Part shown: positions 3,601 to 31,163 of the stretch, one piece after another
Layout of the letters: each line of letters opens with the position of its first letter
Position numbering within the stretch: the stretch's first letter is position 1
Source of the DNA: a virus
Strand: one strand, 5' to 3'
Length of the DNA stretch: 31,163 nt
Virus record (IMG/VR): IMGVR_UViG_3300046385_000030
Span: 1-31,163 of that record
Notes under the pieces: generated by a model
The model's input: the letters and a program-made list of their open reading frames with translations, nothing else
What the model was told of the DNA's origin: nothing
Database searches by the model: none
Translations under genes and position numbers: made by a program

Positions 3601-6600
3601 CTATACTTTTAAATATACTTGACATAACTTTTATTATAGCATCCTCGTGTTCTACCTTATATACAGTTGATTGCCCGCTAGTGTCAATTACAGCACCTGT
3701 TATAGCAGATAAAGCACGCACCCCATTAATTATATTTGCGTTACCAGAAAATATAATTCCTAGTGAATTGATTCTTTTAGCTTTTTCCTCTTTACCTATG
3801 TTTTTTGTGTGGACCCAGGCTCTTAAATTTTCAAAGTATAGTTCTGCTTTTCTCTTATTCACAGCATTAAACTTTGCTAATTCATCTAAATTTTCCTGTA
3901 TTAGCCCTAAGTTTGTAGGGTTGTTTAAAATTATATTCTTAAACTTATCTAGCTTAGTTCTATTTATGCTGGTATATCCTCTTGTTTTAGCAGGTAATTT
4001 TAAGAGCTCTTTTTCTATAGCTGCTTTTATTTTATTAGCTTCTTTTGATATTTCAGAAGCATTTTCAGATACAATGCTATTGAATGTTTGAACTGACTGT
4101 AAATTTATTATATAGTTCAATCTCTCTTCATCTTTAATTACATCGCCGTTTTTATCAATAATCTTTTTATAATCGTTTTTGATAAAATTATAGCTTAGTC
4201 CTGACGTTCTATAATGCAGCCCTAATAAAGATTTTATTAAACCAATATCGTCTGCTAATATATTTGGAAAACTTTTTATTAATTCATTTATAGTTTGCAA
4301 GTGACTTATTAAACTATCTTCTTTAAAGTTTGTTTTCCCTATAACAGAATCTGATAGTGTGTTTAAATCTTTATATTTATAAGAATTTAATATAGCATTA
4401 AATGCTTTAACATACTGCTTGTTTTTTCCATTAACTTTAGAGGGATCTTCCCCTTGTTCAATTCCAAGTACGCCCTCGGCGCTATATTTAATTTCTAATG
4501 AGAATTGTATTTTAGATGCCCCCGCTTTTAAGTCTGCTTGTTGTTCTAATGTTTGAACAGCAGCCATCCTAACAGCGGTATTAGACGCAATTTTACCATA
4601 CAACCTAATCATAGCTAGCATTGTTTGAGCTCTAGGGTCTTTACCTCCAAACGCTAAACCAACACCGTCTTCTTTTATACCAAAAGCAGCAAGAAAATCA
4701 CGATGGGTAATATTCTTTTTTAACTCAAAAGGTATTAACCCTGCCCCTTTGCTAAGCCTTTCTTTTTGATCGTAGAACTCTGCTTGTATTTTTCTAGGAA
4801 TACTTAGTCCGGTGCCTATCAAACTCTCACTTGCCGGTGTGCCTTCTAGTATAGCTCCTTCAGGTAATAACTTTATAAGCTTTACTCTGTTTTCGTATAT
4901 TATTTTTTGTATTGGAGCAATTTCTGGGGTAGCTAAGTTAGCGGCTGCATTTGTCACTTTAGCTGTTGGGATACCAAAGAATTTACCAGTAACTTCAGGG
5001 GCTAAATCATTCAGCTTAGCAAAAGTTAAACTAGCAATTTCTTTTTCATTCATAGCTTCTAACGCAGAATTTACAGCATTAGAATACTCAGTAGATAACT
5101 TATCACCCATCATATCTAACGGATTGATAAGTCCAGATTGTCTCTCTTCTTCTTCTCGCATCTCGTCAAGAGTGGAATCAAAAGAATAATCGTCGTCCAT
5201 GCTATCATTGTACGATGTTGCTCCTTCGTCAATTTCCTTAGAGAATTCTTTAGCTAATATTCTGCGTGATACTTCAATAGCTCTAACAGGAAGATACTTA
5301 TTTATATAAGCAGCCAATGGCACACCAGAGTTTGGATCGTATGCTTTTATCAAGTCGTATAATCCATTTTTACCAGTCTCAAGTTCGTCTGTTAATAGCG
5401 GTTTATCAAACCCAGGAGCATCGCGCCTTTTGTCCACAAGCTTAGCAACTATAGGTTTAAATAATTTGATAATATCAAAAGCACCGTCAACACCTTTGCT
5501 GTCGTATATTTCTTGTACTTTTTCAGAAGCGACTGTTCCCTTGTTTTCTTTTACAATTTTTTCAGCGTCAGCTTCCTCTTTGTCAACTACAGGTTTCTCT
5601 TCTTTTTTGACTTCTACTTTAGGCTTTGGATTCTTAGCTTCTTCTTCTTCTCTGTCAAGTTCATCCATTAATTCATCAAAGCGGTCAACATCTATTTCGT
5701 CTTGAGCCAATTTTTCTTCTAACTCATCTCTTCTTTCGTCTATAGATTTTGAAAACTTTAAATCACCGGCTACCTTCGCTTTATTGTCAATAGATTTTTC
5801 AGCAAATTGCTTTATCAATCCAGTTAATTCACCTTCTTCAAAAGACGAAGAAAAACTTTTTAATAAATCAAGAACATCTTTACCAGTGTTTAAACCTTCA
5901 AATTTTCCAGAGCTTATTTCTTTTTTGAACGTATTTTTAAACGAATCTAATAATTTAGGTAAAAATTTAACGTCTTTTTCTATGTCTCTATCTGAAAGTG
6001 TTGTCAATGCTTTCACTAACTTCTCTTCAGCCACCGCATTTTTTGAAAAGCCAGAGTAATTTTCTTCTACTTTAGCAAATACTTCTTTCATTCCTGAATA
6101 TCTGGAAACCATGTATTTTTCCAGCAAATTAGAAATTTCAGCAATGTTAGCGCCTGATTCTAATATTTTATTGAATATTGTTCTATGAGATGCTTCGTGT
6201 TGTACTACACGACGATCATTAACCGAAGCGGAGTCTCTAACGTGAATTGCTATAGGCATTCCGTCCGCTACGCCAAGCATCGTTCCTGATATGTCAACAG
6301 GTTTGCCTGTTCTAGCCTCAGTCTCTTTTTTACTTTTTTCAATTTCTTTTATAGACTCAAGCATTTTAGCTTTAACTTCTTCACTAGCAGTTGACTGTTC
6401 GACGTTTTGCCTAGCCGTATTTAGCGCTTTTTCTAAAGTGTTTTCAACTACCATTACAGTTTCTACACCGGAATTATTAGCAGCGTTCCAAGCCATATCA
6501 AAGTTCTTTGCTTTTTGTAATTCTTTCGATATAACAGAGTTACCTATAATCCTTTGTTGTCTGTCATTTAAAGTTTTAATTCTTGTGCTAAGATCTTGTA

Positions 6601-8770
6601 TTAGACTTTTTTTATCTACAGAATCGATCTCTGTATTTTCGTTTATTTCGTCTATTCTTTTTCTTAATTCGTATTTTTCAGAATCTATATTAAGTAATCC
6701 TTTTTTATCTTTATTACTCAACTGATCAATCACAGCTTCAGTTTCGCCTTTCAATTTTAGATTGTCATCCAGCAAAGCTTGCTTTCTTTCATTTAAAATA
6801 GATATAGCTTTTTTACTGTCTTCAGTTATTTCGCCAGATAATGTTTGGTTGATTTGCTTATTTATCCTAGCAATCTCAATTGAATTAGATTTCGCTTTAT
6901 TAGCATTACCATCTGCAGAAAACGCTCTATAAATATCAGCAGCTAATACAGGCGATTGGAAACCTAACCCTGACATAAACGCACCGCTTAAGTAAGCTTC
7001 CCCTAATCCGTTAGTTAACGATATATTCTTATCGAGTAAAAATTTATCTGTGGCATTCTGCATTAATTGAGATAAAAGCTCAGCGCTACCTTCTTTATTT
7101 ACGTTTACGCCATAGCTCTTTAAGGCATCGCCTACAGTAAATATTTCATTCGTTAAATCGTCTCTTAAATCAAAACTTTTAGAGTACGCCTTCTTCAATG
7201 TGGTAAGTTGGTCAAGCTCTACTTTTTCTGTTAAGTATTCAGCAGCCCCATATAACAAACCAGACGCATAATATTTAAGTGGAGATATTTTCAATCCAGG
7301 GGTAGATTCTATTTCAATGTCCATATCGGTCATTTTATTACCCGCAGAACCTGCAGATATTAAAGCTAACCCAATTTCTGGCGCTAACAGTGTGGCTGCT
7401 GTGGAAACAACTTGATTACTGAATAAATCAATAGCAAATGATCCAAATTTCTCAGCGCCGCCAGTAATTCCTTCTACAGCACCTATTTCTCTACGTACAG
7501 ATGAATTTATGTCGTCTGATAATTCGCTAGCATTTCTGCTAAAATTTTCAACACCTTCAGTGCTACTATCGATAAATCTACCTACTGGTTTTAAAAAGTC
7601 GGGTAATATAGCTTCAACGCCGTCACCTGTAATTCTTTTTGTTAATCCACCAACTGTTATTTCTTTACCAAGTTTAGCAACGCCTCCAACAGCTTTGACT
7701 AACGTGCTAGCGATTCTTGATGGCCAAACGTCAATTTCTCTATAGCTTCGATTAGCTACGTCGGCAATTGCTGAGAAGTCTTGCGCCTCTTCAATTTTAA
7801 CATTTAATAATTCTAATTCTTTAGATCTTGCAGTCTTAAGTGCATTATAGCTATCTAAAAGTCTATTTCTTTTTATTTCTATGTCAGGAGTCGCATAATT
7901 AGGATTCGCTTTTGCTTTTGAATCAATGTCCGTGATTTCTTTCTGAGCTTCAGCTATACCAACATTATATAATTTCATTTTAGAAATACCGGTTTTTACC
8001 GCTTCGTTTGGTTTTCTAGTAAGTTCATCTGACATTATTTTTCTACCAGCAGAATACAGTATCTCTTTTTCAGTTGGCATAGCTATTCCTCCAACAGCTA
8101 AAGCTCTTGAAGCAACACTTTCCATTACATCTGAAAAGCTAAACATCTTATCCTCGTACTCACTCGTCACTTTTTCAGCTTTAGAGCTAAGCAAGTCCAT
8201 TTTTCTTTCTCTTTTAGCAAGTCTTTTAGCTTCAGCAACGGCATCTTCGCTAGATACTTCTCTGATAGATATTTTATTCTTTTTAGCTATGTTTGTTTTT
8301 GCCGTACCGATATAATCGTCATATACGTTTTTTTCCTCTAACACATACCCATAGTCAGGAGTACCCATTGCATCATAAGTAACAGGCGCTTCCTCCCCGG
8401 AATAGTCAACTCTAGGAACCATCACTTTTCCTTTTTCAACGCTAGTTTCTATTTCATCAGATTCTTCGTCGCTAATAAATATGTCTTTTAGTTTTGTTAA
8501 AGCATCGGAAGTGTAATCAAAAGCATCGTTAACAAAGCTGTCATCTTCTTCTCTAACCTTCCTTTTAAAATTAGAGGCTTTTGGCATTGGAGCCTCTGCA
8601 AGTTTAGAAATACCTAATATTTCATTAGAACCAACATTTGTTTTACCCCATGTTTTGTCAAGCTCTTTTTGCGTTATTTTTTTAGCTGCAGGCTTTTTCT
8701 TTTTAGTATTAAACCCCTTATTCGCAAAGGGGTTGTTATACAATTCATTTTCTTCTCCTATGTTTAACAT
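665..8770 (-). CDS. 2701-residue internal virion 'polyvalent' megaprotein with HExxH peptidase motif
   Basis: Last gene of the late operon, placed like the largest ejection protein in podoviruses. Visible parts in order: a lysine-rich, probably disordered N-terminus; glycine/alanine-rich hydrophobic stretches around residues 345-380 and 455-480; charged coiled-coil about 640-800; a zinc metallopeptidase motif HEASH at 858-862 with AEEKLVKAL near 914-922 offering a third metal ligand; an acidic linker about 1010-1080; a sigma-factor-like stretch about 1140-1280; and a C-terminal helical block about 2240-2460 that resembles the domains found at the ends of phage large polyvalent proteins. DLKFSK (1003-1008) and DLKFSR (1956-1961) recur between blocks. 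No lytic transglycosylase or RNA polymerase DxDGD-type motif was recognised. The start ATG is preceded by A/T-rich sequence without Shine-Dalgarno. Likely carried in the capsid and delivered with the DNA; that role is inferred from position and composition. Confidence 0.75.
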   Translation of the reverse strand: MLNIGEENELYNNPFANKGFNTKKKKPAAKKITQKELDKTWGKTNVGSNEILGISKLAEAPMPKASNFKRKVREEDDSFVNDAFDYTSDALTKLKDIFISDEESDEIETSVEKGKVMVPRVDYSGEEAPVTYDAMGTPDYGYVLEEKNVYDDYIGTAKTNIAKKNKISIREVSSEDAVAEAKRLAKRERKMDLLSSKAEKVTSEYEDKMFSFSDVMESVASRALAVGGIAMPTEKEILYSAGRKIMSDELTRKPNEAVKTGISKMKLYNVGIAEAQKEITDIDSKAKANPNYATPDIEIKRNRLLDSYNALKTARSKELELLNVKIEEAQDFSAIADVANRSYREIDVWPSRIASTLVKAVGGVAKLGKEITVGGLTKRITGDGVEAILPDFLKPVGRFIDSSTEGVENFSRNASELSDDINSSVRREIGAVEGITGGAEKFGSFAIDLFSNQVVSTAATLLAPEIGLALISAGSAGNKMTDMDIEIESTPGLKISPLKYYASGLLYGAAEYLTEKVELDQLTTLKKAYSKSFDLRDDLTNEIFTVGDALKSYGVNVNKEGSAELLSQLMQNATDKFLLDKNISLTNGLGEAYLSGAFMSGLGFQSPVLAADIYRAFSADGNANKAKSNSIEIARINKQINQTLSGEITEDSKKAISILNERKQALLDDNLKLKGETEAVIDQLSNKDKKGLLNIDSEKYELRKRIDEINENTEIDSVDKKSLIQDLSTRIKTLNDRQQRIIGNSVISKELQKAKNFDMAWNAANNSGVETVMVVENTLEKALNTARQNVEQSTASEEVKAKMLESIKEIEKSKKETEARTGKPVDISGTMLGVADGMPIAIHVRDSASVNDRRVVQHEASHRTIFNKILESGANIAEISNLLEKYMVSRYSGMKEVFAKVEENYSGFSKNAVAEEKLVKALTTLSDRDIEKDVKFLPKLLDSFKNTFKKEISSGKFEGLNTGKDVLDLLKSFSSSFEEGELTGLIKQFAEKSIDNKAKVAGDLKFSKSIDERRDELEEKLAQDEIDVDRFDELMDELDREEEEAKNPKPKVEVKKEEKPVVDKEEADAEKIVKENKGTVASEKVQEIYDSKGVDGAFDIIKLFKPIVAKLVDKRRDAPGFDKPLLTDELETGKNGLYDLIKAYDPNSGVPLAAYINKYLPVRAIEVSRRILAKEFSKEIDEGATSYNDSMDDDYSFDSTLDEMREEEERQSGLINPLDMMGDKLSTEYSNAVNSALEAMNEKEIASLTFAKLNDLAPEVTGKFFGIPTAKVTNAAANLATPEIAPIQKIIYENRVKLIKLLPEGAILEGTPASESLIGTGLSIPRKIQAEFYDQKERLSKGAGLIPFELKKNITHRDFLAAFGIKEDGVGLAFGGKDPRAQTMLAMIRLYGKIASNTAVRMAAVQTLEQQADLKAGASKIQFSLEIKYSAEGVLGIEQGEDPSKVNGKNKQYVKAFNAILNSYKYKDLNTLSDSVIGKTNFKEDSLISHLQTINELIKSFPNILADDIGLIKSLLGLHYRTSGLSYNFIKNDYKKIIDKNGDVIKDEERLNYIINLQSVQTFNSIVSENASEISKEANKIKAAIEKELLKLPAKTRGYTSINRTKLDKFKNIILNNPTNLGLIQENLDELAKFNAVNKRKAELYFENLRAWVHTKNIGKEEKAKRINSLGIIFSGNANIINGVRALSAITGAVIDTSGQSTVYKVEHEDAIIKVMSSIFKSIVANEKNIEFNSTAILVPESFADSRNKTIDVKLSNALLYQGWKAKELSLPKNSNLKELNAKFSLTTKADLEWETKFGVTSADFKVDPYTYTINIGSVKGYGIPQETNMEEALEKIANNLELPLTYLTDNDNVKWVGFTEKNLGFKILNTGNAFEVLGIVTNALTDYIQKNKVEGIAFGVDVAEPSRVRLYKTLASTLGGKLGWKYTSVNSFNEENGIVFALTPDKNSQKQSTSDLKFSRNLKEDFNTILEETTGIGRGEEFSSITARTKGAGKGKFRFFVPPSAEDFAGLLYDFLGKGKRGEEHFEFFKTNLISPYTRGIQRIDNIRANIKEGYKALKAEYPAESKKLKKKVEGKEFTYDQAVRVYLWKANDMAVPGLSDKEVMAMSNTVKKDAKLREFADKLSIASGQLKGWVEPTEYWNVESIVSDLHNATEKVGRRNILKEFIENSDEIFSPENLNKIEAALGTNYRSALEDSLFRMKNGSNQTSTDKFSSAFVSWIANANGTIMFLNTRSAILQTIAATNYLNWTDNNPVAASAAFLNQPQYWKDFAMIFNSNKLKERREGLKADVNEAEIANAVKGSKNKAKAALSYLLKIGYTPTQIADSFAIAAGGSTFYRNRVKTYEKQGLSTKEAEDKAFEDFDNATEESQQSSDPSKLSQQQASTAGRLILAFANTPMQYNRLMKKAFRDLINGRGDAKTHVSKILYYGAVQNIVFSALQNALFATLFDDEEEDEKTAKANERKYANILNGMADTILRGTGITGAIVSTAKNVVTKFFEEREKGFKGDQAKTIVAALGISPPIGSKAAKLYSAINTEKIDKDIIDKRGMDVTLDGQLNLSPSYDIAGKVVASTTNFPLDRLVDKVNNVSEVLDSRNKTWQRVALALGWKAFDVGTLNEGEDLIRAEAKAERKEESSIKAAKDRIIKKAKLQDRIKDMSSEERKQYKDSLRNVAEDKAIKRKRIWEETQVTRDSIDDAMN

Positions 8771-11120: not shown

Positions 11121-12590
11121 TTAGTAAGTTAGTTGCTCAAAGTTAGTAGAAACAGAAAACAATTCTTTTGGTTTCCCTAAATCGGTATCGGCATCGGTAG
11201 ACATTGTAACGGTCGCAAAATATCCTTTTATACCAGATATTTCATTTCCAAATAATATCTCACCTTGGTTAGCTAAACTCTTGTTCATTATAGCTGCCAT
11301 GTATTTGTTTTCTTTTCTGTCAAAACCTGCTCTGTTTATAGGCGGGTATAATATTGAAGGGTAAGAATTACCGTAGTTGTCGTAAGCTCCCATCATATAA
11401 CTGAATACAGCCGGGCTTTGTAATACACCTGCTTCATCAAAGCTATTTGAATATGCCGATGCAAATAAATCTTTCCCCGTTGAATCGGATACAAATGAAT
11501 CTACTTGCCATCCATTAGATCCTTCGTAGTTTATTGTGTTGAATATTTTAGAAACGCTAGGGTTTGTATTGAATACGAAAACAACTTTAGAAGGCTCTGT
11601 AACGCCATAAAAACTACCTCTATTAGCTGTAGTACTGTAATGTTGCCAAAGTTGGCCGTTACGCATTGTAAAGAACTTATTCTTGATGCTAATAATTTGT
11701 TCTGGGGCATAACTAAAGAAACTTGTAAACCCTTGAGTGGTTTCATCAAATGCCAACGTACTATAACTCCTGTTAGGGTCTATTGTGCTTGTGCCTGGAT
11801 TTGTTTTACTTTTCTGAATAGACACAACGTATTGTTTGTTATGTATATCCCAGCCTCCAAATATCTTGCCATTACCATAAACAGAAGAATCAACACTGTT
11901 TAATTCATCTCTAAAGAAATCAAGCATTCCATATTCAGAAATCTCTGTTATTCCATCTTGCGACAATCTTAAAATAGCATTACGATCTTTATCAGCAAAG
12001 TATTTTCTATATCCATAAACGGCAAAGCTTTCAGGGTTCCTACTTATGCCATAGTTTCCAGCGTAAGCTTGCACTTGACCTATAACAACTTTAGAAGATG
12101 TTACGGTTCCGCCACCCTCAGCAGAGTATATTGCATCTTTATCTATCAATGCTCGGCTAACTTTATTCTCTTGGAATATTATTAAGTTAGTGTCTTCTGC
12201 ATACAACTTCTGTATTGTACCGTTAGCTGGATCCAATGACTTAGTTATATCTTCACCAACCGAAAACTGGTTTGTATTGTTAACTCCGGTTCTTGAATTA
12301 AATACGCCAGAATATATTAGAGAGTTACCTCTTATAGCAGCACTGTTGTCAGCATCAACTATATATGCTTTCACTCCAAAATCGGTAGTAGTATTATTAA
12401 AACCACCTGTTATCCTAGCTTCTTCTATAACCCATTGTTTAGCAGGCGTATTAGTTACCCCCGCGACTGGAAATCCTCCGGCTGCTTGAGGTATGCCAAG
12501 GGACCCCGCCCAAACGGGATCCCCTGTGCCATTAACTAATTTCTTTAAAAAAAACGAGTTAAAATATTTTATTTCTATTATTGCTGGCAT
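11121..12590 (-). CDS. Tail protein, second propeller-like component (tail tube/muzzle-type)
   Basis: The 489 residues are almost entirely beta-strand in character, with strings such as VIEEARITGGFNN, SLIYSGVFNSRTGVN, NLIIFQENKVSRALID and NPESFAVYGYRKYFADKD. These patterns are familiar from the tail-nozzle or 'muzzle' proteins of crAss-like and Cellulophaga podoviruses, where blades of a beta-propeller build the tube below the neck. It lies immediately downstream of the 1034-residue tail protein, 40 bases apart, and the two probably assemble together. The start ATG at 12588-12590 has an A/T-rich leader. No enzyme motif was seen. Assignment as tail protein is good; which tail layer it forms is not resolved. 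Confidence 0.68.
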   Translation of the reverse strand: MPAIIEIKYFNSFFLKKLVNGTGDPVWAGSLGIPQAAGGFPVAGVTNTPAKQWVIEEARITGGFNNTTTDFGVKAYIVDADNSAAIRGNSLIYSGVFNSRTGVNNTNQFSVGEDITKSLDPANGTIQKLYAEDTNLIIFQENKVSRALIDKDAIYSAEGGGTVTSSKVVIGQVQAYAGNYGISRNPESFAVYGYRKYFADKDRNAILRLSQDGITEISEYGMLDFFRDELNSVDSSVYGNGKIFGGWDIHNKQYVVSIQKSKTNPGTSTIDPNRSYSTLAFDETTQGFTSFFSYAPEQIISIKNKFFTMRNGQLWQHYSTTANRGSFYGVTEPSKVVFVFNTNPSVSKIFNTINYEGSNGWQVDSFVSDSTGKDLFASAYSNSFDEAGVLQSPAVFSYMMGAYDNYGNSYPSILYPPINRAGFDRKENKYMAAIMNKSLANQGEILFGNEISGIKGYFATVTMSTDADTDLGKPKELFSVSTNFEQLTY

Positions 12591-12630
12591 ACTTTTATTA
12601 TTACTTATTTACTTATTAAATTACAGCAGA

Positions 12631-15600
12631 TTAGCAATACTGCACACCTGTTATCATGACATTTCCTTGAGGCGAATAAACCGAGTTAATTTTCGCACAG
12701 CTTACTTGGCTTTGGCTTCCGGAAGTAAATTGATGTGTTATCAGGTTATTCGTGTAGCAGTCTCTGTATTTTACCTCGCATTGTGTTCCGGAAGGAGCAG
12801 TACAAACAAGATTATAAACCTGGCATACAACGCATGCATTCTGACAATCTTGCAATGTAGCATAAGTTCCGCTTTGGTTTGGCACAACTTGACATCCACC
12901 CTGTAATGGCACACAGTTATATGTAAATGCTGGTGTATAACTTAACATTATCATATATGTATCAGTAGCTCCACCGGCATCCGTGACTCTTACGGTAACT
13001 CTATATAAACCCACGGCTTGTAAACCTGTGTCCCTAAGCATTCCACTTGGCGTTGCTGGGCTATTAACTATAGAAAATATAGTTGTGTTAAACCAGTTAC
13101 CACTTTGTTCTGCTTCTTGTGAAACTATTGTCCAAACAAGATCATCTGTACTTTTTCCTCCAAGCGCATTAGAGCCATTAACAGCGTTGAATTGATAAAC
13201 ATCAGCAACAGCTTGCGAATATTCAACAAGGGTATCTGTGTTAGTTATATCCGGCGCAACGTTCGTTAATCCACCTTGTTTGCTTAGTATTGATTGAACC
13301 CCATTTGCTTGTACCGTGAAATAAAAAACATACGTCTCAAGTTGAGCAGCGTTCAATCCGTAGTAAAAGTAATCATTGGTTACTATCTTATATGTGCCAG
13401 GAGAACTTCCTGCTTGTATTTGGAATTTGCTTGTGCGTATATCGTTGTTAAGATTACGAACCTCCATTACAGGCATGCTAGTTGGAAATACTGGTACACC
13501 AGATAAATCTGTAAATCCGAAATTATTAACGACTGTAGTTCCTACCGAATTAGCTTCAGACATATTAAATGTCCATCCTGTAACAATAGCAGCTCCTCCT
13601 GAGTCGGTAAGAATTGCATTATTTAATTCACTGATTAAACCAACTGTTGACGTTTCCCAGTATATATCTAATTTTGATTCTACCGGTTTTGTTTCGTATA
13701 CAGCTAGATTTTGAACATCGCTTGTAGATACAACACCAAGTTGTAATTCTGTTGAAATTCTAGCTATAAATGGATTTGATTCTACTTGGTAGAATTCATC
13801 GTAATTAGCTGGCAGAGATAACGGATCAACATTAAATAAAGAACTATTTGTAGCAATCGTACTAACAAAAGCATATTTATTACCTGGGAATGCCTGAGCA
13901 TTGCTGCCATCCGTGTTGTTTACTCTATTATATAAAGTAACACTACTTCTAAATTGCGTTTGAGTTGGACCTACCTCTTTTAAATCTCTGGGTACTTTAT
14001 TTATGTTGTCATTTATTAAAACAGCATGAGCAGTCTTGCTTAACTCTTTTGTAGGATCTCCTGGATATGCAGCCATAACGCCTGGAAGATATACATTATA
14101 ATAATCTTGCTCTGTTTGTTTTACAACTATCTTATAAGAATACCAACCAGTAGGATTGTAATTTGGACTGTTAGGATCTCCGTTGTATAATCCAGGCCAA
14201 CCCGTATTTACATCTGGACCGTTTGAAGGTATTGGATCATTAAATAAAACTTTCAATGAAAAACCTGGCCAATCTTTAATGTTATAATCATCTGATAAGT
14301 AAGGCACGTAAAGCGATGATGCTCCAAAGTCTGCAATACTAGATGTAATTTTATCTGATAATATTACTCCTGACTGTCTACCATATTTATCGCCTAATAT
14401 TACGCCTATCTGATAATTTCTATTTTGCTTTAATGTATGGTTAGGGTATTCGATTATGCTAGAACCTTGCATTGAGTTAAATCCAAATGGAAACTTCTCG
14501 CTATATCCTACGTTGTAGTTTAAATACTTAGGGTACGATGCTTTGTCCTGAAAATTGCTATACACAACACGATTGCTTATTATTTCTTGCCCCAAAGCTT
14601 TTAATGGCACTCTATCATATACACGGATAATATCTCTCTCTGGTAGTGTTTTAAACGGCTTCTTTGATTGATATTCGTATTCGTATGTTGTACTTGATCC
14701 GGATGCAGAGGCTATCTTAGAAACCGGTATAGAATCTACAACGCTAACTACAGGTGAATCTGACTCTTTGTATATTATTTCTACCTCACTTATTTTATAT
14801 GCACTAGCTAAAGTATTAGCAGCACCTGGAAGTATCATCTGTAATAATATATTGTTAACTTTATTCTGCATAAACCTAACAATAGTACTTCTATACGCAT
14901 CCTCTTCATCACCTGTCATAAAAAACCCATCCTGCTTTGGTATATAAGCAACCTGTGTAAATGGTGCAAATATTGAATATTCACCATCTTCAAACTTATA
15001 TCTATAGCTAAATCTAACCATTTTGCTTTCTAGATACTTAGGATCCCCTTCGTACCCATTTTGCCAATAAGGATTTGCCGCATTATTAGGGTAGAGTTCA
15101 CTGGACACATCGTACATGGATGTTTCGTATTGATTTGGCGCAATAGCTGCATTACTAGCTCTTCTCTTGTATAAGTTAAATGGATGTAATGGACTAACCT
15201 TAGCGACAGATATTTGATCTTCTGTAGTATAGTACCCGGCAGTATTAATAGCCTTAGATACGTTTATTTTTCTAGGTTGATTTCTGTTGTCTGTCCAAAA
15301 TAATAAATCCTCTATTACGTTTATTCCGTATACTGGATTTGTTGTAGAAAAGTTTAACCAGGCTCCTTCTATTAATTTTGTTGTAGTTCCTGCTTTTATA
15401 TCTCTAACATATATAAAGTTTTTAGCCGTAGGGCTATACTGTGGTGAAAAGCCAGGATTAGTATAGTTAGTTAAAAATATATATATTCGGTCTGTAGTAT
15501 TATCAACAAAAGACCCGATACACTGAAGTAAAGGGTCTGTTGTTATTTGTTCTATTTGATTAAAGTCAACGACTAATTCGTTTCCTTGTGCATTCTGTAA

Positions 15601-15735
15601 TGTACCAACATTTGAATCGCTAGACTTATTTATCTCAAGGTTAAGAGCATATCTGTATTCGTTAGCAGGTATTAATCTATCATCTACGTCTCGGTTCATT
15701 TTAGAACCAAGGAAGTTGTTTTTAATTTCCGCCAT
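12631..15735 (-). CDS. Tail tube/muzzle-like protein with cadherin-like and cysteine-rich C-terminal domains
   Basis: The N-terminus has the pattern FLGSKMNRDVDDRLIPANEY followed by LNLEIN, GTLQNAQGNE and LLFWTDNRNQPRKINVSKA, which is characteristic of the large propeller-type tail proteins of crAss-like phages (the counterpart of T7 tail tubular protein B). Residues about 830-938 look like an Ig/cadherin-type domain (DLVWTIVSQE, then YRVTVRVTDAGGATDTYMIM). The final 94 residues, 941-1034, contain ten cysteines (C941 to C1034, the last residue), while the rest of the protein has almost none. This would form the distal tail or an exposed domain stabilised by disulfides, possibly touching the host surface. 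The gene ends 40 bases before the second propeller gene. The tail assignment is strong; the receptor-contact idea is inference. Confidence 0.75.
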   Translation of the reverse strand: MAEIKNNFLGSKMNRDVDDRLIPANEYRYALNLEINKSSDSNVGTLQNAQGNELVVDFNQIEQITTDPLLQCIGSFVDNTTDRIYIFLTNYTNPGFSPQYSPTAKNFIYVRDIKAGTTTKLIEGAWLNFSTTNPVYGINVIEDLLFWTDNRNQPRKINVSKAINTAGYYTTEDQISVAKVSPLHPFNLYKRRASNAAIAPNQYETSMYDVSSELYPNNAANPYWQNGYEGDPKYLESKMVRFSYRYKFEDGEYSIFAPFTQVAYIPKQDGFFMTGDEEDAYRSTIVRFMQNKVNNILLQMILPGAANTLASAYKISEVEIIYKESDSPVVSVVDSIPVSKIASASGSSTTYEYEYQSKKPFKTLPERDIIRVYDRVPLKALGQEIISNRVVYSNFQDKASYPKYLNYNVGYSEKFPFGFNSMQGSSIIEYPNHTLKQNRNYQIGVILGDKYGRQSGVILSDKITSSIADFGASSLYVPYLSDDYNIKDWPGFSLKVLFNDPIPSNGPDVNTGWPGLYNGDPNSPNYNPTGWYSYKIVVKQTEQDYYNVYLPGVMAAYPGDPTKELSKTAHAVLINDNINKVPRDLKEVGPTQTQFRSSVTLYNRVNNTDGSNAQAFPGNKYAFVSTIATNSSLFNVDPLSLPANYDEFYQVESNPFIARISTELQLGVVSTSDVQNLAVYETKPVESKLDIYWETSTVGLISELNNAILTDSGGAAIVTGWTFNMSEANSVGTTVVNNFGFTDLSGVPVFPTSMPVMEVRNLNNDIRTSKFQIQAGSSPGTYKIVTNDYFYYGLNAAQLETYVFYFTVQANGVQSILSKQGGLTNVAPDITNTDTLVEYSQAVADVYQFNAVNGSNALGGKSTDDLVWTIVSQEAEQSGNWFNTTIFSIVNSPATPSGMLRDTGLQAVGLYRVTVRVTDAGGATDTYMIMLSYTPAFTYNCVPLQGGCQVVPNQSGTYATLQDCQNACVVCQVYNLVCTAPSGTQCEVKYRDCYTNNLITHQFTSGSQSQVSCAKINSVYSPQGNVMITGVQYC

Positions 15736-18665: not shown

Positions 18666-20087
18666 TTAGTCAACTTTATTGAACAATACGAAGTTGTTAG
18701 CGCCTTGAACACATAAACATCTTTCAGACAAGAAGTGTACTTCCATTGCGTCTAAGTCAGAAGTATATGCTCCACCAACAGAACCTGTAACCCAGTTTTT
18801 CATACGTCTGTCATCAGCTTGTCCAGCTCTATAACGAACGTGTAAGAAAGGTCTACGGATATTAGTTCCTAAGATTTGATCGTATACTGTAGAAGTTCCT
18901 GCAGGAATCAATAATCCTTCGATACCTAATCCATTAGCAGAAGCTCCACGAGTAGAGGCGTCGTTTAAGTATTTCCAGTCAGTTTTGTAGAAATCGTAAG
19001 ATCCACGACGGAAACCAGAGAAGCCTAAGTTCAATGCCATGTCTTGTGAATTTTCGAACAATCCGTAAGCTACACCACCTTGAGCTCCAGAAGATAAACC
19101 AGCAAGCATATCATCAAAAGCAAGAGATAAAGAACGGTTGTTGAACAACATGTTTTCTTCAATAGCTCCTTGAGTATCTAGGTTTTTCAAGATAGCGTCG
19201 AAATCTCCGATTTGTCCACCGAAGTTAGTCAATACGTTACCTCTGTCTTTAACAGCAGCAAATAAACCTTGAGTACCTTTTTTACCAGCAGCTTCAGCAG
19301 CAGATCCAGTAGCAGCTAATTCTCCTTCTACAACAGCCATTTCTAAATAATCTTCGAAACGTAATCTTGTTTCAGACTCAGCTTTCAAATACCAGAAGTA
19401 TCCGTCAGTACCATCTTCAGCAGCAACGTTTACCCATCCGATTTGTGCAGTATCAGATCCATTAACAACATATTTGTTACGGATGATAATTGGAGAGTTA
19501 CTGTATTGAGTGAATGAAGGCTCGATGCTTGTGTAAGCGTCGCTAGTTAAAGTTGAACCTTTAGAGTACTCAGAACCAAATACGAAGATTTTAACTTCAG
19601 CACTTGTAATTCCAGCAGCAGCTAAGTTAGCAGCAGTATAAGGGGCAACAGTTAATACACCTTGAGCAGTACTAGCAGTAACTACAGCTTTCACTTCAGC
19701 CCCAGTAGCTTGGTCAATGATAACGATTGTTTGGTTAACAGAAATTACATTACCAACAAAAGCATCAGCAGTGTTGTTCAATGTAATTGTAAGCTCGTTA
19801 GCTCCAGAAACTTCAACAGCGTTGTAAGCAACGTGTAATCTGTTTTGTTCAGCCCAGATAACTTGGTCAGAGCTCATTGGCATTTCAGCGCCTACCATAC
19901 GCAAGAATCCAGATAAAGTTCTGTTTCCGTAACGCTCTACTTCTGATTCGTAGATCTCAGGTAAATATTGTTGTGCGAATGATACGAAATCAGGGTTAGT
20001 CGTATCAGTAAAGTTTAAATAGTTTGACTCTAAAGCTTGTGCTTTTTGAGAAGGAACAATGCTCCCAAATGTAGGTAATAATGCCAT
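18666..20087 (-). CDS. Major capsid protein (HK97-fold, crAss-like type), 473 residues
   Basis: The N-terminal part (MALLPTFGSIVPSQKAQAL, FAQQYLPEIYESEVERYGNRTLSGFLRMVGAE) and the segment after residue ~190 (YTSIEPSFTQYSNSPIIIRNKYVVNGSD) match what I recall of crAss-like major capsid proteins. Residues about 95-185 are a valine/threonine/alanine-rich beta insertion (for example NQTIVIIDQATGAEVKAVVTAS) that could be a surface domain. Codon use differs from neighbours: TTC, TAC, AAC, GAC and CGT are frequent, as expected for the most abundant product. It follows the scaffold-like gene with a short A-rich leader (AAACAAACAAAAA before ATG). It ends just before a hairpin cluster. Function is well supported by position, size and pattern. 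Confidence 0.85.
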   Translation of the reverse strand: MALLPTFGSIVPSQKAQALESNYLNFTDTTNPDFVSFAQQYLPEIYESEVERYGNRTLSGFLRMVGAEMPMSSDQVIWAEQNRLHVAYNAVEVSGANELTITLNNTADAFVGNVISVNQTIVIIDQATGAEVKAVVTASTAQGVLTVAPYTAANLAAAGITSAEVKIFVFGSEYSKGSTLTSDAYTSIEPSFTQYSNSPIIIRNKYVVNGSDTAQIGWVNVAAEDGTDGYFWYLKAESETRLRFEDYLEMAVVEGELAATGSAAEAAGKKGTQGLFAAVKDRGNVLTNFGGQIGDFDAILKNLDTQGAIEENMLFNNRSLSLAFDDMLAGLSSGAQGGVAYGLFENSQDMALNLGFSGFRRGSYDFYKTDWKYLNDASTRGASANGLGIEGLLIPAGTSTVYDQILGTNIRRPFLHVRYRAGQADDRRMKNWVTGSVGGAYTSDLDAMEVHFLSERCLCVQGANNFVLFNKVD

Positions 20088-23677: not shown

Positions 23678-25900
23678 TTATTTTATTATTTTTGAATTAT
23701 AACCTTCGTTACTGTATTTTTTAAAGTTTAATGGAACAGTACTCTTTTTAATATCCGCTGTAGGTACATATCGATGTCTATTGCAAGCCATAATAGCTAA
23801 ACCAGAACTTATCGAGGCATCATGCTTTGTACGATTATTTATATTGAATCTTGCCCAGTCTTCTAATGTCTTTTGGAAATACATTGTTCCGTACTCATCT
23901 CCATTTAAACCAACATGGTCTTCTATGTAACTTTCGATTGCAGCAGCGTGAGCTTGTACAATATCTTGTGATGAGTTGGGTATTCCGCCTATTTCTTTTT
24001 CAGTTACAGATAATTTAGCGTAAACCTTATCAGGTCTATTCATTGAGAATCCTCTATAACCTCTTCTTTTAAAATGATATAGTAATCTAGGTTTGTTATT
24101 TTCAGCTAGTATTGGCATACCGTAGAATATGCAAGCCATTAAAACTTCTTCAAAGAATATTTCAGCTGTTTGTGGTCTAGCTATATATTCTAAGAAAAAA
24201 TGATTAGCAGGAGCATCCTCCATTGAAAATTTGGTAAGACCGTGTAAAGCTCCGTTAGATCCTCTTGTGTCAACAGTTCCCGATATATCGTAACTATCAC
24301 AACCAAAAGCTCCAACGTGCTCATTACCAGGGTATTTAACACCATTCCTTAGTACTACTCTATTTTGTAGATGCGCTGGAGGTACCCACGATATTAAAAA
24401 TCTACCGTCTTTATTAGGATAAAATTGAACTCTTGTATCAGGAATTCCATTCTCCCATTGAAAGCTACCTCTTGTTACTACACTTGTATTTCTTAAATCA
24501 TCGTTATAATCTATTTGTTCGTATATACGAGTAAGATTAAATAATGATTGTTTTGCTTCATCTCTAAAAGCGTGTTGTTCTGTTCTAGGAAACTGTCGGT
24601 AGTATTCGTTCAATCCATCAGGATCGTTTTTTAAACCTTCAACTTCATTTTGCCAGTGTTCAATAACACCGTATTCAATCCATGATCCATCAACCCCTTT
24701 TATCGGTTTTTCTGGAGTGTCGAAGACAGGTACGCCATAAGAATCAATGAATCCCTCGTACGACCATTCCATAGGTATGAACAAACTATATAATCCTGAA
24801 CTAGTCTGTCCATTGCGGTTTCTTTTCGTAACGTCTGAATCATAATATAGCTTCTTAAAGTTTTCTCCTCCTTTATCTAAAGCATTTGATGTTGAACCCA
24901 TCATACACTTACCAATAATTTTGGATCCTAAACGTAAACATGTTTTTGTTACACGCCAGTTATTTAATATATTGTCTGGTTTTTCCCATTTACCACTCTC
25001 ATCGTGTACTAATAGTTTTAGCTTTTCACCATCATAAGAGTTATCTCCTGTATTCTTCCAGTCAATAGTTGTATCCAAACCATCAAGCTCAATAAGCTCT
25101 TCGTTTGAATCTAATTTCTTTCTTGTAAATTTCGATGCAGGAATACGATATGCCAACTCTGTTTTAGGTCGGTCCATACCATCTTGGATAGGCTTAAAAA
25201 AGAAAGGGTAGTTAACAGATATAGGAACAACCTTGTCTGTAAACATTTTCTTAGCATCACCTCCCGATTTTGATAATATACCAAAACGCGCATCACTTGA
25301 TATTGTGGCTTGGTTAACTAGTTCCGCAGATGACATAAATGAAAATCCAGAACGTCTATTCTTTAAATAACACATTCCGTAACATCTATTATCTGCTATA
25401 CACGCTTCCCAAAATATAAAGAACAATCTGTTTGATTCCCTGAAATCAGGCGCTCCAACGTCTATCTTGCTCCATTGCAAGTACATATAATGTGTACCGG
25501 TTATGTATGACGGTTTACCGTTACTATAGTAAAAGAAACCTTCATCTCTATATTTGAATTCGTAATCGATATAGTCATAATACCTTTCCTTAAAATGGTC
25601 AGGTTGTTTATTCCAATCGAATACACTTTTAATCTTTTCTAATTCTTTAGGATATGGAGCTTGTTCCCAATATTGTTCTTCCGGTTTCTCAGATCTCTTA
25701 TAAACATCTTCTGCTAATGGTAAAGCTATCTTAAGATTTTGTATCTCATATATCTCACCAATCTTACCAGTCTTGCTTATAACAACTATATCGTGCTCTT
25801 TATCGTAACCGTAAGCCCAAAGCTTATGTTTGTTCTTATGGTTTATTACTTTTGGTTTTATATACTCATCGAGTACTTTAAACAAGGTTTGTTCATACAT
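23678..25900 (-). CDS. terL: Terminase large subunit (packaging ATPase/nuclease), 740 residues
   Basis: ATPase signatures are a degenerate Walker A, KNRRSGFS (about residues 180-187), and a Walker B LLVHDES with D300-E301. Downstream, GSTSNALDKGGENF fits the coupling region. The nuclease part shows FGCDSYD with D535, an acidic ILAENN segment, and KHDASISS with D694, consistent with the RNase H-like metal site. It pumps phage DNA through the portal into the head and cuts it at the end. The start ATG overlaps the stop of the 91-residue gene by one base, and the portal gene follows at once. The about 170-residue N-terminal extension before the Walker A is longer than in classical terminases but similar to flavobacterial and crAss-like phages as I remember them. 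Confidence 0.88.
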   Translation of the reverse strand: MYEQTLFKVLDEYIKPKVINHKNKHKLWAYGYDKEHDIVVISKTGKIGEIYEIQNLKIALPLAEDVYKRSEKPEEQYWEQAPYPKELEKIKSVFDWNKQPDHFKERYYDYIDYEFKYRDEGFFYYSNGKPSYITGTHYMYLQWSKIDVGAPDFRESNRLFFIFWEACIADNRCYGMCYLKNRRSGFSFMSSAELVNQATISSDARFGILSKSGGDAKKMFTDKVVPISVNYPFFFKPIQDGMDRPKTELAYRIPASKFTRKKLDSNEELIELDGLDTTIDWKNTGDNSYDGEKLKLLVHDESGKWEKPDNILNNWRVTKTCLRLGSKIIGKCMMGSTSNALDKGGENFKKLYYDSDVTKRNRNGQTSSGLYSLFIPMEWSYEGFIDSYGVPVFDTPEKPIKGVDGSWIEYGVIEHWQNEVEGLKNDPDGLNEYYRQFPRTEQHAFRDEAKQSLFNLTRIYEQIDYNDDLRNTSVVTRGSFQWENGIPDTRVQFYPNKDGRFLISWVPPAHLQNRVVLRNGVKYPGNEHVGAFGCDSYDISGTVDTRGSNGALHGLTKFSMEDAPANHFFLEYIARPQTAEIFFEEVLMACIFYGMPILAENNKPRLLYHFKRRGYRGFSMNRPDKVYAKLSVTEKEIGGIPNSSQDIVQAHAAAIESYIEDHVGLNGDEYGTMYFQKTLEDWARFNINNRTKHDASISSGLAIMACNRHRYVPTADIKKSTVPLNFKKYSNEGYNSKIIK

Positions 25901-26175
25901 TATTTGGATCTCCCTTCTGCGAAACCTCTAAAAGGTTTTATTGCCTCTGCATCAGTAGGTTTATCTGCTAATGCTTTTTCTTCTTCATCAACCCTATTAA
26001 GAATTTCAAATGCATCAAATATTGCTAACTTTTTAGTAGCTGCTGCATTCTTAAGTCTATCAGCAGAAAGATCGTCTTCGCTTCCTATGATAGCTTCTTC
26101 TGCAACTTTAATTAATTCCTCAACTGCTCTGCGACCAGCTTGGATTATACTCAACTTCGCTTCCTTCGTAGTCAT
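25900..26175 (-). CDS. Putative terminase small subunit, 91 residues
   Basis: The protein is short, helical and charged: RAVEELIKVAEEAIIGSEDDLSADRL, then KKLAIFDAFEILNRVDEEEKAL, with a polar C-terminus. It lies immediately upstream of the large terminase and its stop overlaps the terminase start by one base, which is the usual position of the DNA-recognition small subunit. I see no clear helix-turn-helix signature, so the role is inferred from size, composition and linkage. The first 56 bases overlap the end of the 201-residue gene in another frame, indicating translational coupling; no later in-frame ATG would give a sensible protein, which supports the chosen start. Confidence 0.5.
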   Translation of the reverse strand: MTTKEAKLSIIQAGRRAVEELIKVAEEAIIGSEDDLSADRLKNAAATKKLAIFDAFEILNRVDEEEKALADKPTDAEAIKPFRGFAEGRSK

Positions 26176-26725
26176 ACTTAATTACAATATCATTTGATTT
26201 CATACAATATAATCGCTGCTGATCTATAATAAATTCGAATTCTCCATAAGGAGTATACCCAACTAGATCACCAGGATTGATTTTAAGCTTGTTTAAGGAG
26301 TCATTTCCATACTTTAGTATTCCAATAAGCTTCCTTTCTTTTTCTAAGCTAAAATCGTCATTATTTTTTATAGGCATAACAAAACATCTATTGGCAAATG
26401 CTTTCCATTTACCGGTATCACCATACATATATATCTGATCAGGTTGTACAAAGTACATATCTTCCATATAATATGATCTACTATTTTTTTGTCTGCCTTT
26501 CATGTCGTAGAATCTCCTAAATACGTTGTGGTGAATTATTACTTTATCACCAACTTTTATATCTGTATCATAAGCAAGTGGTACATTCACGACTTCAGCC
26601 ATGTTATTAACCGCTTTAAATGATTCGATGCGTGTATTTAAGATTAGTTCTTTACCATCAACCATCTTGGAATTATCGTATCGATCTCCAATAGGCTTGA
26701 CTATAAAATCACTAAATGCTTTCAT
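26120..26725 (-). CDS. Protein with two GroES-like halves, 201 residues
   Basis: Two segments each read like a co-chaperonin barrel. In the first (about 5-105) NNMAEVVNVP leads to IKVGDKVIIHHN and then YYMEDMYFVQPDQIYMY. In the second (about 113-190) KLIGILKYGND leads to INPGDLVGYTPYGEFEFIID and then YCMKSNDIVIKYDYEG. The order, a G/E-V-x-V strand, a GDxV turn, then a strand ending in D-I, is that of GroES. Neither half has the GGIxL mobile-loop motif; the first has KELILN at that place. It is distinct from the canonical groES at 29363-29629 in the same operon. It could be an assembly chaperone for a virion protein, or a structural protein that borrowed the fold. Pattern-based, moderate confidence. 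Confidence 0.55.
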   Translation of the reverse strand: MKAFSDFIVKPIGDRYDNSKMVDGKELILNTRIESFKAVNNMAEVVNVPLAYDTDIKVGDKVIIHHNVFRRFYDMKGRQKNSRSYYMEDMYFVQPDQIYMYGDTGKWKAFANRCFVMPIKNNDDFSLEKERKLIGILKYGNDSLNKLKINPGDLVGYTPYGEFEFIIDQQRLYCMKSNDIVIKYDYEGSEVEYNPSWSQSS

Positions 26726-28671: not shown

Positions 28672-28920
28672 TTAATAAGTTTGTTGATTATAAGTTGTCG
28701 GTGTTGCAATTCCTGCTTGAGGCTGTTGCGGTACATTAACCATTCTGTCAAATGATCCTGCTACCGGTGTACCAAACATATTTGTCATAGTATTTTGCGT
28801 AGCTGGATTAAAGTTAACAGGAGCACCTGATGGTTTAATACCAGGGTTAAATGTTTGTACCGGCGGTTGCGCGTTAAGATCTTGGCTAAAAGCTGGATCA
28901 ATTTGAGCGTTGTTCATCAT
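28672..28920 (-). CDS. Small Pro/Gln/Asn-rich hypothetical protein, 82 residues
   Basis: The sequence is rich in Pro, Gln, Asn and Thr (AQPPVQTFNPGIKPSGAPVN, later NVPQQPQAGIATPTTYNQQTY), contains no cysteine, and is probably unstructured. It starts with two consecutive ATG codons; the ATGA-type overlap with the stop of the upstream winged-helix-like gene supports the first. Together with the next two genes it forms a run of low-complexity proteins between the chaperonins and terminase. Function unknown. Confidence 0.55.
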   Translation of the reverse strand: MMNNAQIDPAFSQDLNAQPPVQTFNPGIKPSGAPVNFNPATQNTMTNMFGTPVAGSFDRMVNVPQQPQAGIATPTTYNQQTY

Positions 28921-29366
28921 GTTTTTCTATTGTCTTTGTTAACGTTATCTATTGCTTTTTGCAATACCGTATCTGAGTACGTCTTGCCTCTCATTATAGT
29001 ATTCCTTCTTTCGCTAGTAGGAATATCTTCTTCACCGAGCATTATACGGTACATTTTATTTATTAGCTGTTTGCACTTAAAGGAAACTTTATATATGTTG
29101 TATTTTTGTGTTGTCCTGTTTCTTTCTCTCCATACAGTTATCCAACCCTGTTTTAACAAATTGTTCCAGCGCTTACTATCCCAGCTATAAGCGTATGTAC
29201 CCATCATATAATCCTGCTTGGTAAATAGATCCAAACAATCAAAGAATATTAATAACTCTAAGTCTGAATCTGTTAAGTTGTTATTACGGCAAGCCCATCT
29301 ACGTATAACTCTATAATGTTTAAGCAATCCAATATCTTTTATATCTTTTGCTTCTAAACGTCTCAT
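28917..29366 (-). CDS. Winged-helix-like protein, possibly DNA-binding, 149 residues
   Basis: Residues about 15-95 read as a helix set followed by a wing: LKHYRVIRRWACRNNN, DSDLELLIFFDCLDLF, WDSKRWNNLLKQGWITVWRERN, then QKYNIYKVSFKCKQLINKMYRIMLGEE. The L-x-x-L-x-x-x-G-W-I then YxxS pattern is the usual layout of MarR/PadR-type winged helices, in which the 'GW' ends the recognition helix region and the wing follows. The C-terminal 30 residues are basic and probably disordered. It is coupled to groES by an ATGA overlap. Similar proteins occur near head genes in Bacteroidetes phages as I recall. It may regulate late genes or bind DNA in packaging; the fold call is moderate and the role unproven. 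Confidence 0.55.
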   Translation of the reverse strand: MRRLEAKDIKDIGLLKHYRVIRRWACRNNNLTDSDLELLIFFDCLDLFTKQDYMMGTYAYSWDSKRWNNLLKQGWITVWRERNRTTQKYNIYKVSFKCKQLINKMYRIMLGEEDIPTSERRNTIMRGKTYSDTVLQKAIDNVNKDNRKT

Positions 29367-29629
29367 AGAACTCCGATTATATCTTCCTTACGTATAACTT
29401 TGTAATCAACTTTATTTATTTCTACACCGTGCCCAGCGTGCTTATCGTATTTGATACGCATTCCAGGACTAAGAACTTTTGAATCTATTTCATCTCCAAC
29501 AGAGATTACTGTAGCATTTCTATAACGGATGTTTTCTTTATCTTTTTCAAGTAGTAAAATACCACCTTTTGTTTTTTCTGCAACCTCTTTATCAGGTTCG
29601 ATTATGATCACTCTACCTATTGCTACCAT
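29363..29629 (-). CDS. groES: Co-chaperonin GroES, 88 residues
   Basis: The layout matches GroES: GRVIIIEPDKE, then a mobile loop EKTKGGILLLEKDKEN with the GGIxL motif that docks on GroEL, then NATVISVGDE, SPGMRIKYDKHAG and the closing VIRKEDIIGVL. The roof loop between the VGD turn and SPG is short. As a heptamer it caps the GroEL ring and encloses the client. The start ATG overlaps the end of groEL by 17 bases and the stop overlaps the next start, so the three are translated together. It is a little shorter than the bacterial protein (about 95 residues) but lacks no core strand. Confidence 0.9.
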   Translation of the reverse strand: MVAIGRVIIIEPDKEVAEKTKGGILLLEKDKENIRYRNATVISVGDEIDSKVLSPGMRIKYDKHAGHGVEINKVDYKVIRKEDIIGVL

Positions 29630-31163
29630 CGATTCTAAGATTATTGATTACACAATCTGTCGATAATATAGTAGTGGCTACTGACGATGCATTCTTTAAA
29701 GCACTTTTCGTAACTAATAACGGATCAATAATTCCAGTTTCAATCATATTAACAACATCCCCTGAAATTACATTAAGCCCATATCCTTCTTTAAACATGT
29801 TAAAATCGGTTGGGAACTCATCAATACCTGCGTTAGATAATATTGTCAGAAACGGTGCTCTAATTGCGTCTAATAATACAAGTTCCTCGTTTGATTCAAT
29901 TGTATCTTTCAAAATATTAGAAGCATTCAATAAAGCGATACCACCTCCAGGCACAATACCTTCTTTGATAGCTGCTTTGGTTGCACAAATAGCATCTTCA
30001 ACTCTATCTGCTTTTTCTTTAAGCTCTAATTCAGAATTTGCTCCAACTTTTACAATTGCAACTTTAGCAGATAATCTAGCTAGTCTTCTTTCAAGTCTAA
30101 TAATTTCTCCAGGTGCTTTTGTATTGTCAATTTGATTTTTAATATCTTCAATAAGTTGTAGAATGTCTTCAGACAATTCGCCAACCTGTAATATTGTATC
30201 TGAGTCAGTAGTTACACTTTTAATACAAGAACCTAAATGCTCAACAGATATTAAATCCATATCGTCACCTAAGTCTTCATTAATAACTGTAGCCCCAGTA
30301 AGCAAAGCTAAATCAGATAACATATCTTTTTTGTTAACTCCGTATGTTGGTGCGTTAATTACATTCACCTTCATATTCCCTTTAACTCTGTTCATTGCTA
30401 ATACGGATAAAACACTTTGTTCTACGTCTGCAATAATAAGCAATGCTCTGTTTGATTTTATTGTGTATTCTAATACTGATTGTATTTGTCTAATCGTTTC
30501 GATAGGTGATTCTACAATTAATACTAATGGATTTTCTAAAACAGCTTCTCTTTTGTTTTTATTATTAACAAAGTGAGAATTAACTAATCCTTTATCATAC
30601 TGTACACCGTCGATTATTTCAATCTCAGTATCAGTACCTCCATTAGTTTCCATCATTACAACTCCAGTTTCTCCAACGGCTCTAAACGCATCGGCAATAA
30701 TTTTACCAAGCTCTTTATCATTGTTTGTTGAAATAGTAGCAACGTGATCAATCATATCACCTGAAACAGGTATTGCAATTGACTCTAAGTACTTAACTAC
30801 TTTATCAGTCGCTCTGTCAATACCATCTTTTAATTTTCTTTGGTTTGCTGGTGGTTTAACTGAGTAAGCTTGCTCTAATATAGAATGAGCTAATACGGTT
30901 GCAGTAGTTGTTCCGTCACCGGCTTCTTTAACTGTTTTCCTAGCGGCTTCTTTCAATAGTGTAGCTCCCATATTTTCAATAGGATCTAATAGTATAATAC
31001 TATCGGCTACCGAAACACCATCTTTTGTTATAATTGGTTTACCTTGATTATCCTCTAGCATAACACATTTACCACTTGCTCCAAGTGTTGAACTTACAGC
31101 AGAAGTCAATTTGGTTATGCCTTCAAAAACCTTAAGTCTAGCTTCTTCGCCAAAGCTAAGGTT
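29613..31163 (-). CDS. groEL: Chaperonin GroEL (N-terminal few residues outside window)
   Basis: Open to the window edge; the first in-window residues NLSFGEEARLKVFEGITKL align with the first 20 residues of GroEL, so only a few codons are missing and the TTG at 31107-31109 is not the true start. Three ATP-site aspartates are present in TKDGVSV, AGDGTTTATV and RVEDAI, with VPGGGIALL after the last. Apical and intermediate domains are complete. The C-terminus stops after DCVINNLRIDGSNR and lacks the Gly-Gly-Met tail of most bacterial GroEL. Total about 520 residues. Relative to the E. coli protein (from memory) several groove residues that bind clients and GroES differ. The pair with groES ahead of the head genes points to folding of virion proteins. 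Confidence 0.93.
   Translation of the reverse strand, partial: NLSFGEEARLKVFEGITKLTSAVSSTLGASGKCVMLEDNQGKPIITKDGVSVADSIILLDPIENMGATLLKEAARKTVKEAGDGTTTATVLAHSILEQAYSVKPPANQRKLKDGIDRATDKVVKYLESIAIPVSGDMIDHVATISTNNDKELGKIIADAFRAVGETGVVMMETNGGTDTEIEIIDGVQYDKGLVNSHFVNNKNKREAVLENPLVLIVESPIETIRQIQSVLEYTIKSNRALLIIADVEQSVLSVLAMNRVKGNMKVNVINAPTYGVNKKDMLSDLALLTGATVINEDLGDDMDLISVEHLGSCIKSVTTDSDTILQVGELSEDILQLIEDIKNQIDNTKAPGEIIRLERRLARLSAKVAIVKVGANSELELKEKADRVEDAICATKAAIKEGIVPGGGIALLNASNILKDTIESNEELVLLDAIRAPFLTILSNAGIDEFPTDFNMFKEGYGLNVISGDVVNMIETGIIDPLLVTKSALKNASSVATTILSTDCVINNLRIDGSNR

Follow-up and report, generated by a model that had tools for sequence, protein, structure and literature searches.

Why some phages carry a whole chaperonin, instead of using that of the host, is a question on which the lineage described here bears. 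The window (the entire stretch analysed, a viral record of 31,163 bases, probably from a phage of marine flavobacteria) ends in genes for a group I chaperonin, GroEL (29613–31163; 516 codons present), and for the co-chaperonin GroES, or Cpn10 (29363–29629; 88 amino acids); these and all features below lie on the minus strand unless stated otherwise. GroEL matches PF00118 with 212 bits (cut-off 34.3) and phrog_5725 with 450 bits, and has full-length relatives. GroES matches PF00166 with 47.3 bits (cut-off 21.1), and alignment places the hydrophobic tripeptide ILL in its mobile loop. An initial annotation saw here a complete and uncommon pair at the head of the virion operon, and inferred a ring specialised for a small number of phage clients, the capsid protein for example.

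The gene pair and its surroundings

The two genes overlap, as annotated, by 17 bases in the window. The pair is nevertheless not complete: GroEL is cut by the contig end and lacks its first seven codons. Contig L002, with 100% identity across the shared 516 residues, has seven extra codons (MTDAIVK), giving a gene of 523 codons versus 516 in the window; seven codons are therefore missing, and the pair is incomplete here.

Nor do the chaperonin genes head a virion operon that runs straight into head genes. Six relatives with sequence upstream of GroEL carry long repetitive fibre-like ORFs there, together with small ORFs of putative lysis type (classed by eye as putatively holin- or spanin-like); nearly all are on the same strand as GroEL and end 30–60 bases from its start. 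The operon-head position is thus an artefact of the contig end. On the other side, seven genes separate GroES from the large terminase subunit, TerL (23678–25900; phrog_6681), which anchors the packaging and head block. The probable major capsid protein (18666–20087) matches phrog_13704, a virion structural protein of the head and packaging class, and its position suggests the capsid assignment. In bacterial chaperonin operons groES comes first; the order in the window, groEL and then groES, is reversed.

In all relatives whose sequence extends far enough, GroES is followed by a gene for a 149-amino-acid protein (28917–29366 in the window). Its AlphaFold2 model (pLDDT 86.5) is a MarR-like winged helix, the best Foldseek matches all being MarR-family-like, and from this predicted fold and the gene order it could be a regulator of the chaperonin genes or of late genes. 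Elemovirus, ctfjg026 and Panino carry homologues close to their chaperonin genes, oriented the other way.

Elsewhere in the window, two ORFs of 1034 and 489 amino acids (11121–15735) match the crAss-type muzzle protein in its N-terminal (PF25731) and C-terminal (PF25729) portions, where elemovirus and ctfjg026 each have a single long structural ORF; the two ORFs reflect a split gene, a frameshift or an assembly error. A 2701-amino-acid protein (665–8770) has no Pfam or PHROG match and contains a HEASH (HExxH-like) motif. On the plus strand, opposite to the virion genes, positions 1–492 encode the C-terminal end of a large subunit of ribonucleotide reductase (PF02867).

Distribution and origin

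The view that such a pair is uncommon in phages did not survive a wider search. GroEL and GroES lie on one strand in 80 of 80 viral contigs selected by GroEL, and where these contigs reach far enough the 149-amino-acid gene, the gene for a second co-chaperonin-like protein (see below), TerL and the portal follow. Because a set selected by GroEL is biased by that choice, relatives were also picked by TerL (the best 80 matches, a non-random sample). Of these TerL matches, 13 have 8 kb or more of upstream sequence, and 10 of the 13 carry both GroEL and GroES; the three TerL-picked contigs without GroEL are fragments of 12.7–20.3 kb. All of the five longest contigs tested (64–69 kb) contain GroEL, embedded among phage genes.

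The pair is annotated in ctfjg026 and elemovirus, and we found it also in Panino, DAC16, immuto and Calle_3. The GroES genes of Maribacter phage Panino (L084:38129-38395) and Bacteroides phage DAC16 (L155:2706-2969) are labelled 'hypothetical protein'. Elemovirus, ctfjg026 and Panino share the order groEL–groES with the window lineage; immuto, DAC16 and Calle_3 have the bacterial order. Published reports likewise describe phages that carry both chaperonin subunits (PMC7185714), Panino among them (PMC11590407). According to PMC9611531, Marine et al. 2017 linked subunit gene order to GroEL phylogeny, and Nishimura et al. (PMC5332604) reported that 36 environmental viral genomes, putatively from viruses of Flavobacteriaceae, contain GroEL.

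The GroEL gene might in principle be a host fragment at the contig end, or a recent capture from a host. Its identity to Bacteroidota GroEL is just 39–43%. In a GroEL tree the clade is monophyletic (SH-aLRT 100), has elemovirus, ctfjg026 and Panino as its neighbours (85), and is placed outside the 22 Bacteroidota sequences and E. coli, that is, not inside the sampled hosts. The tree covers GroEL only, rests on one alignment program and on a bacterial comparison set of Bacteroidota plus E. coli, and has many long branches; support is low where the phage groups join, and the deeper joins are unsure. A scan of genome contigs recovered lineage copies in only two MAG contigs. That copies are present in two Flavobacteriaceae MAG bins is the one point in favor of capture or a fragment; however, the same bins have their own host-type GroEL, separate from the phage contigs of the lineage. 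Together with the low identity, the place of the clade in the tree and the setting of GroEL among phage genes in contigs up to 64–69 kb, this led us to dismiss both readings as extremely improbable, and to regard the gene as a phage gene. The bins are consistent with flavobacterial hosts for the phage lineage, although binning can mislead.

The binding groove of GroEL

The groove of GroEL is the binding site both for clients and for the mobile loop of GroES. Alignment with E. coli K-12 GroEL (L153; numbering checked at D52, D87, D398, Y199, R452 and E461) revealed exactly the substitutions originally claimed, Y199L, Y203H, L234Q, V263A and V264M, with F204, L237 and L259 kept; S201N is one further change. 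The altered residues fall in three segments: 30570–30587, where LVNSHF replaces the YLSPYF of E. coli positions 199–204; 30471–30482 in helix H, with L234Q beside the retained L237; and 30393–30410 in helix I, with V263A and V264M beside the retained L259. L234Q, V263A and V264M occur in every one of the 72 distinct clade sequences (72/72), in which Y203 is always H, N or S, while the original residues at 234, 263 and 264 are almost invariant among 62 Bacteroidota GroELs. The window does not match the hydrophobic groove of E. coli type: six of nine positions are changed and the hydropathy sum is 7.7, compared to 19.2. Across the clade this sum ranges from 5.8 to 10.4, versus 16.9 to 23.3 in the 62 Bacteroidota GroELs, and the ranges do not overlap.

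The altered hydrophobicity concerns client range and not membership of the GroEL family. As annotated, the ATP site is retained in the window (T30, G32, K51, D52, D87–T91, D398 and D495), and its residues, including D52, D87, D398 and the DGTTT motif, are 100% conserved in 72 clade sequences. The GGM tail is indeed missing, both from the window and from all 88 of 88 clade sequences; it is present in 54 of 62 Bacteroidota GroELs.

One way to judge the groove is to compare it with the remainder of the apical domain. Hosts conserve 111 apical columns at a level of 95% or more; of these, six of the nine groove columns and 64 of the other 102 are changed (Fisher p=0.56). The groove has therefore moved along with the whole apical domain, and we ruled out that it is a uniquely changed site. 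The clade keeps 41 of these 111 apical columns, compared to 75 of 116 host-conserved columns in the equatorial parts. Within the clade, conservation of the groove columns is above that of random apical columns (P=0.008), and the new groove is therefore under constraint. Other phage chaperonins have different groove positions changed.

The mobile loop of GroES also differs from that of hosts. Its tripeptide is hydrophobic in 86 of 90 phage GroES sequences and reads LLL in 71 of the 90 (ILL in the window); host tripeptides are mostly III, LYI or IYI. GroES evolves faster than GroEL, with identities to the window of about 50% and about 70%, respectively, in relatives.

Two explanations for the groove deserve consideration. 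It may have been retuned specifically for a single phage client or very few, the capsid protein for instance, as the initial annotation held, and the fixed substitutions, the hydropathy range without host overlap and the constraint within the clade speak for this. Against it stand the change of 64 of the 102 other host-conserved apical columns, the binding of the same residues by the GroES loop, itself changed, and the alteration of different groove positions in other phage chaperonins. With groove change no more common than its apical background, and with the site shared by the lid, we consider retuning to clients unlikely, and the claim of a tuned ring was not upheld. Alternatively, the changes may be mainly a co-adaptation with the phage lid, giving a self-contained pair that does not mix with that of the host. 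The loop of GroES is well established to dock in the groove, the lineage has LLL or ILL in place of the III or LYI of hosts, and the two genes occur together at every locus; yet groove and loop are nearly fixed in the lineage, leaving no co-variation to score, and clients and lid share the binding site. We hold co-adaptation with the lid to be a serious contender, if somewhat short of probable. By sequence alone, client tuning and lid co-adaptation are inseparable.

Variable ring–ring contacts

The region corresponding to E. coli 452–464 (29811–29849) carries R452L, E461D, S463F and V464P, and the window as a whole has S, P, L, D, F and P at K105, A109, R452, E461, S463 and V464, so that the classical contacts between rings are not reproduced. 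Classical double-ring contacts of E. coli type are no requirement for membership of the GroEL family. Mean entropy in the clade is 2.32 over the ring-contact columns 105, 109, 434, 452, 461, 463 and 464 and 0.78 over the equatorial columns (P about 1e-4, from 20,000 random draws of equatorial columns), a signal that depends in part on the alignment, some columns being in gapped loops and position 452 in a gap-free stretch. The same columns in hosts show no excess (0.74 versus 0.71), and the two sets are alike in overall divergence (mean identity 77% for the clade and 74% for hosts). All 62 of 62 hosts have R at position 452, which in the clade is usually K, E, N, L or Y; E461 is retained as E or D in 47 of 72 clade sequences.

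The chaperonins of the giant phages EL, OBP and AR9 adopt a single-ring form for at least part of the time (PMC5934643, PMC9598537, PMC7185714). Taken with these, the variability of the ring contacts hints at a single-ring or altered double-ring machine, which is a fair hypothesis for the lineage.

A second co-chaperonin-like protein

Two genes before TerL, at 26120–26725, the window encodes a 201-amino-acid protein that matches phrog_13932, 'co-chaperonin GroES', with 88.5 bits. Its C-terminal half matches Cpn10 profiles with hhalign values of 2.5e-5 and 9.4e-5, compared to 0.21–0.66 for column-shuffled controls; the match of the N-terminal half is weak (0.002–0.01; controls 0.02–0.69). The best Foldseek match of the AlphaFold2 model (pLDDT 79.3) is 7ekq_R, by chain name a Cpn20 co-chaperonin subunit (213 columns, E 8.9e-5, TM 0.53), and GroES chains come next. 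The N-terminal half also contains a conserved hydrophobic stretch, KELIxNT, which resembles a mobile loop. A search of PDB sequences with the protein gave chance matches only; kinship is thus based on PHROGs, on the hhalign result for the C-terminal half and on the predicted fold. A tandem Cpn10, similar to Cpn20, is the best reading of this protein, with the N-terminal half resting on the model. A shallow search of the literature found no description of a tandem phage Cpn10.

The tandem gene occupies a nearly constant place, 0.8 kb before TerL, in all 59 of 59 contigs with enough upstream sequence. Three of these contigs show no GroEL in the sequence available, which could mean that the protein is a factor for virion or packaging assembly that reuses the Cpn10 fold and is no chaperonin lid; that only the C-terminal half is clearly recognisable by sequence points the same way. 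However, PHROGs and several records name the protein a co-chaperonin, its best fold match is Cpn20, the N-terminal half retains the loop-like KELIxNT, and the three contigs that lack GroEL are fragments. An assembly factor without lid function is accordingly a possibility that we regard as doubtful on balance.

CrAssphage cr111_1 (L160) carries groEL as well as, three genes before TerL, a gene annotated as '10 kDa chaperonin'; the layout resembles that of the lineage. Sequence does not support kinship of this '10 kDa chaperonin' with the tandem protein (E is 0.25 against the profile of the tandem protein and 0.03 against that of GroES); the two are alike in position alone.

A proposed role and its relation to known systems

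The locus probably encodes a phage-made group I chaperonin that folds late phage proteins. Late in infection, the phage would express its own GroEL ring and GroES lid; the ring would cycle by ATP with GroES as its cap, the two presumably working jointly. The chaperonin genes appear to form one block with those for fibres, lysis, packaging and head. The chamber would enclose and fold late phage proteins, for which virion proteins of capsid size are the best candidates, and virion assembly would thereby become independent of the host chaperonin. Groove and lid loop would have changed together. More tentatively, a relaxed ring–ring interface may yield a single ring or an altered double-ring contact, and the tandem-Cpn10 protein may be an alternative or mixed lid like chloroplast Cpn20, or a lid-derived factor in virion assembly. 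Support for a folding machine comes from the intact genes across the lineage, the invariant ATP residues, the retained GroES loop, the conserved and less hydrophobic groove, and the linkage to late genes. A bolder version, in which a lidded single ring without classical double-ring contacts works on virion proteins with two lids, GroES and the packaging-linked Cpn20-like tandem, so that viruses would have reached a chloroplast-like arrangement, we think rather improbable.

The closest known systems are the flavobacterial podophages ctfjg026 (MW202828), Flavobacterium elemovirus and Maribacter phage Panino, in which, as in the window, groES follows groEL and a tandem-Cpn10-like gene immediately precedes TerL; their virion genes are related to those of the window, and they have homologues of the 149-amino-acid protein. 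They differ in that their GroEL is 35–40% identical to that of the window and their groove is different (Y199, for example, is kept); in some, several kb separate the pair from TerL, or the two lie on opposite strands. The putative Flavobacteriaceae viruses from the environment (group 2, PMC5332604) also have a phage GroEL, and the text examined describes none of the groove, ring-contact or tandem-lid features. The virioplankton chaperonins of Marine et al. 2017 are likewise environmental phage GroELs, to judge from their description as cited in PMC9611531. The chaperonins of EL, OBP and AR9 are phage-encoded and ATP-dependent, as the GroEL of the window is predicted to be from its intact ATP site, but are without a known co-chaperonin, whereas the window lineage keeps GroES (80/80 GroEL-selected contigs); the EL protein is about 25% identical to the GroEL of the window. 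T4 gp31 and RB49 CocO are phage-made lids for capsid folding that use the host GroEL, whereas the window phage brings the ring too. In the chloroplast, the Cpn60 system has a single-domain Cpn10 and a tandem-domain Cpn20 as co-chaperonins (PMC5780408), a set that resembles the ring, GroES and predicted tandem lid of the window; chloroplast Cpn20 and the phage tandem protein are 14% identical, and convergence is possible.

Virus-borne chaperonins and GroEL/GroES pairs are already known. What looks new is the combination of a fixed groove change, relaxed ring contacts and a tandem lid-like protein, and the variable ring contacts and the second co-chaperonin-like protein look more informative than the signals singled out by the initial annotation. 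The lineage is common in viral metagenomes and has cultured cousins in elemovirus and Panino. With it, three questions can be put to a direct test: is the groove change for clients or for the lid, does the machine work as a single ring, and is there a lid of Cpn20 type beyond plastids?
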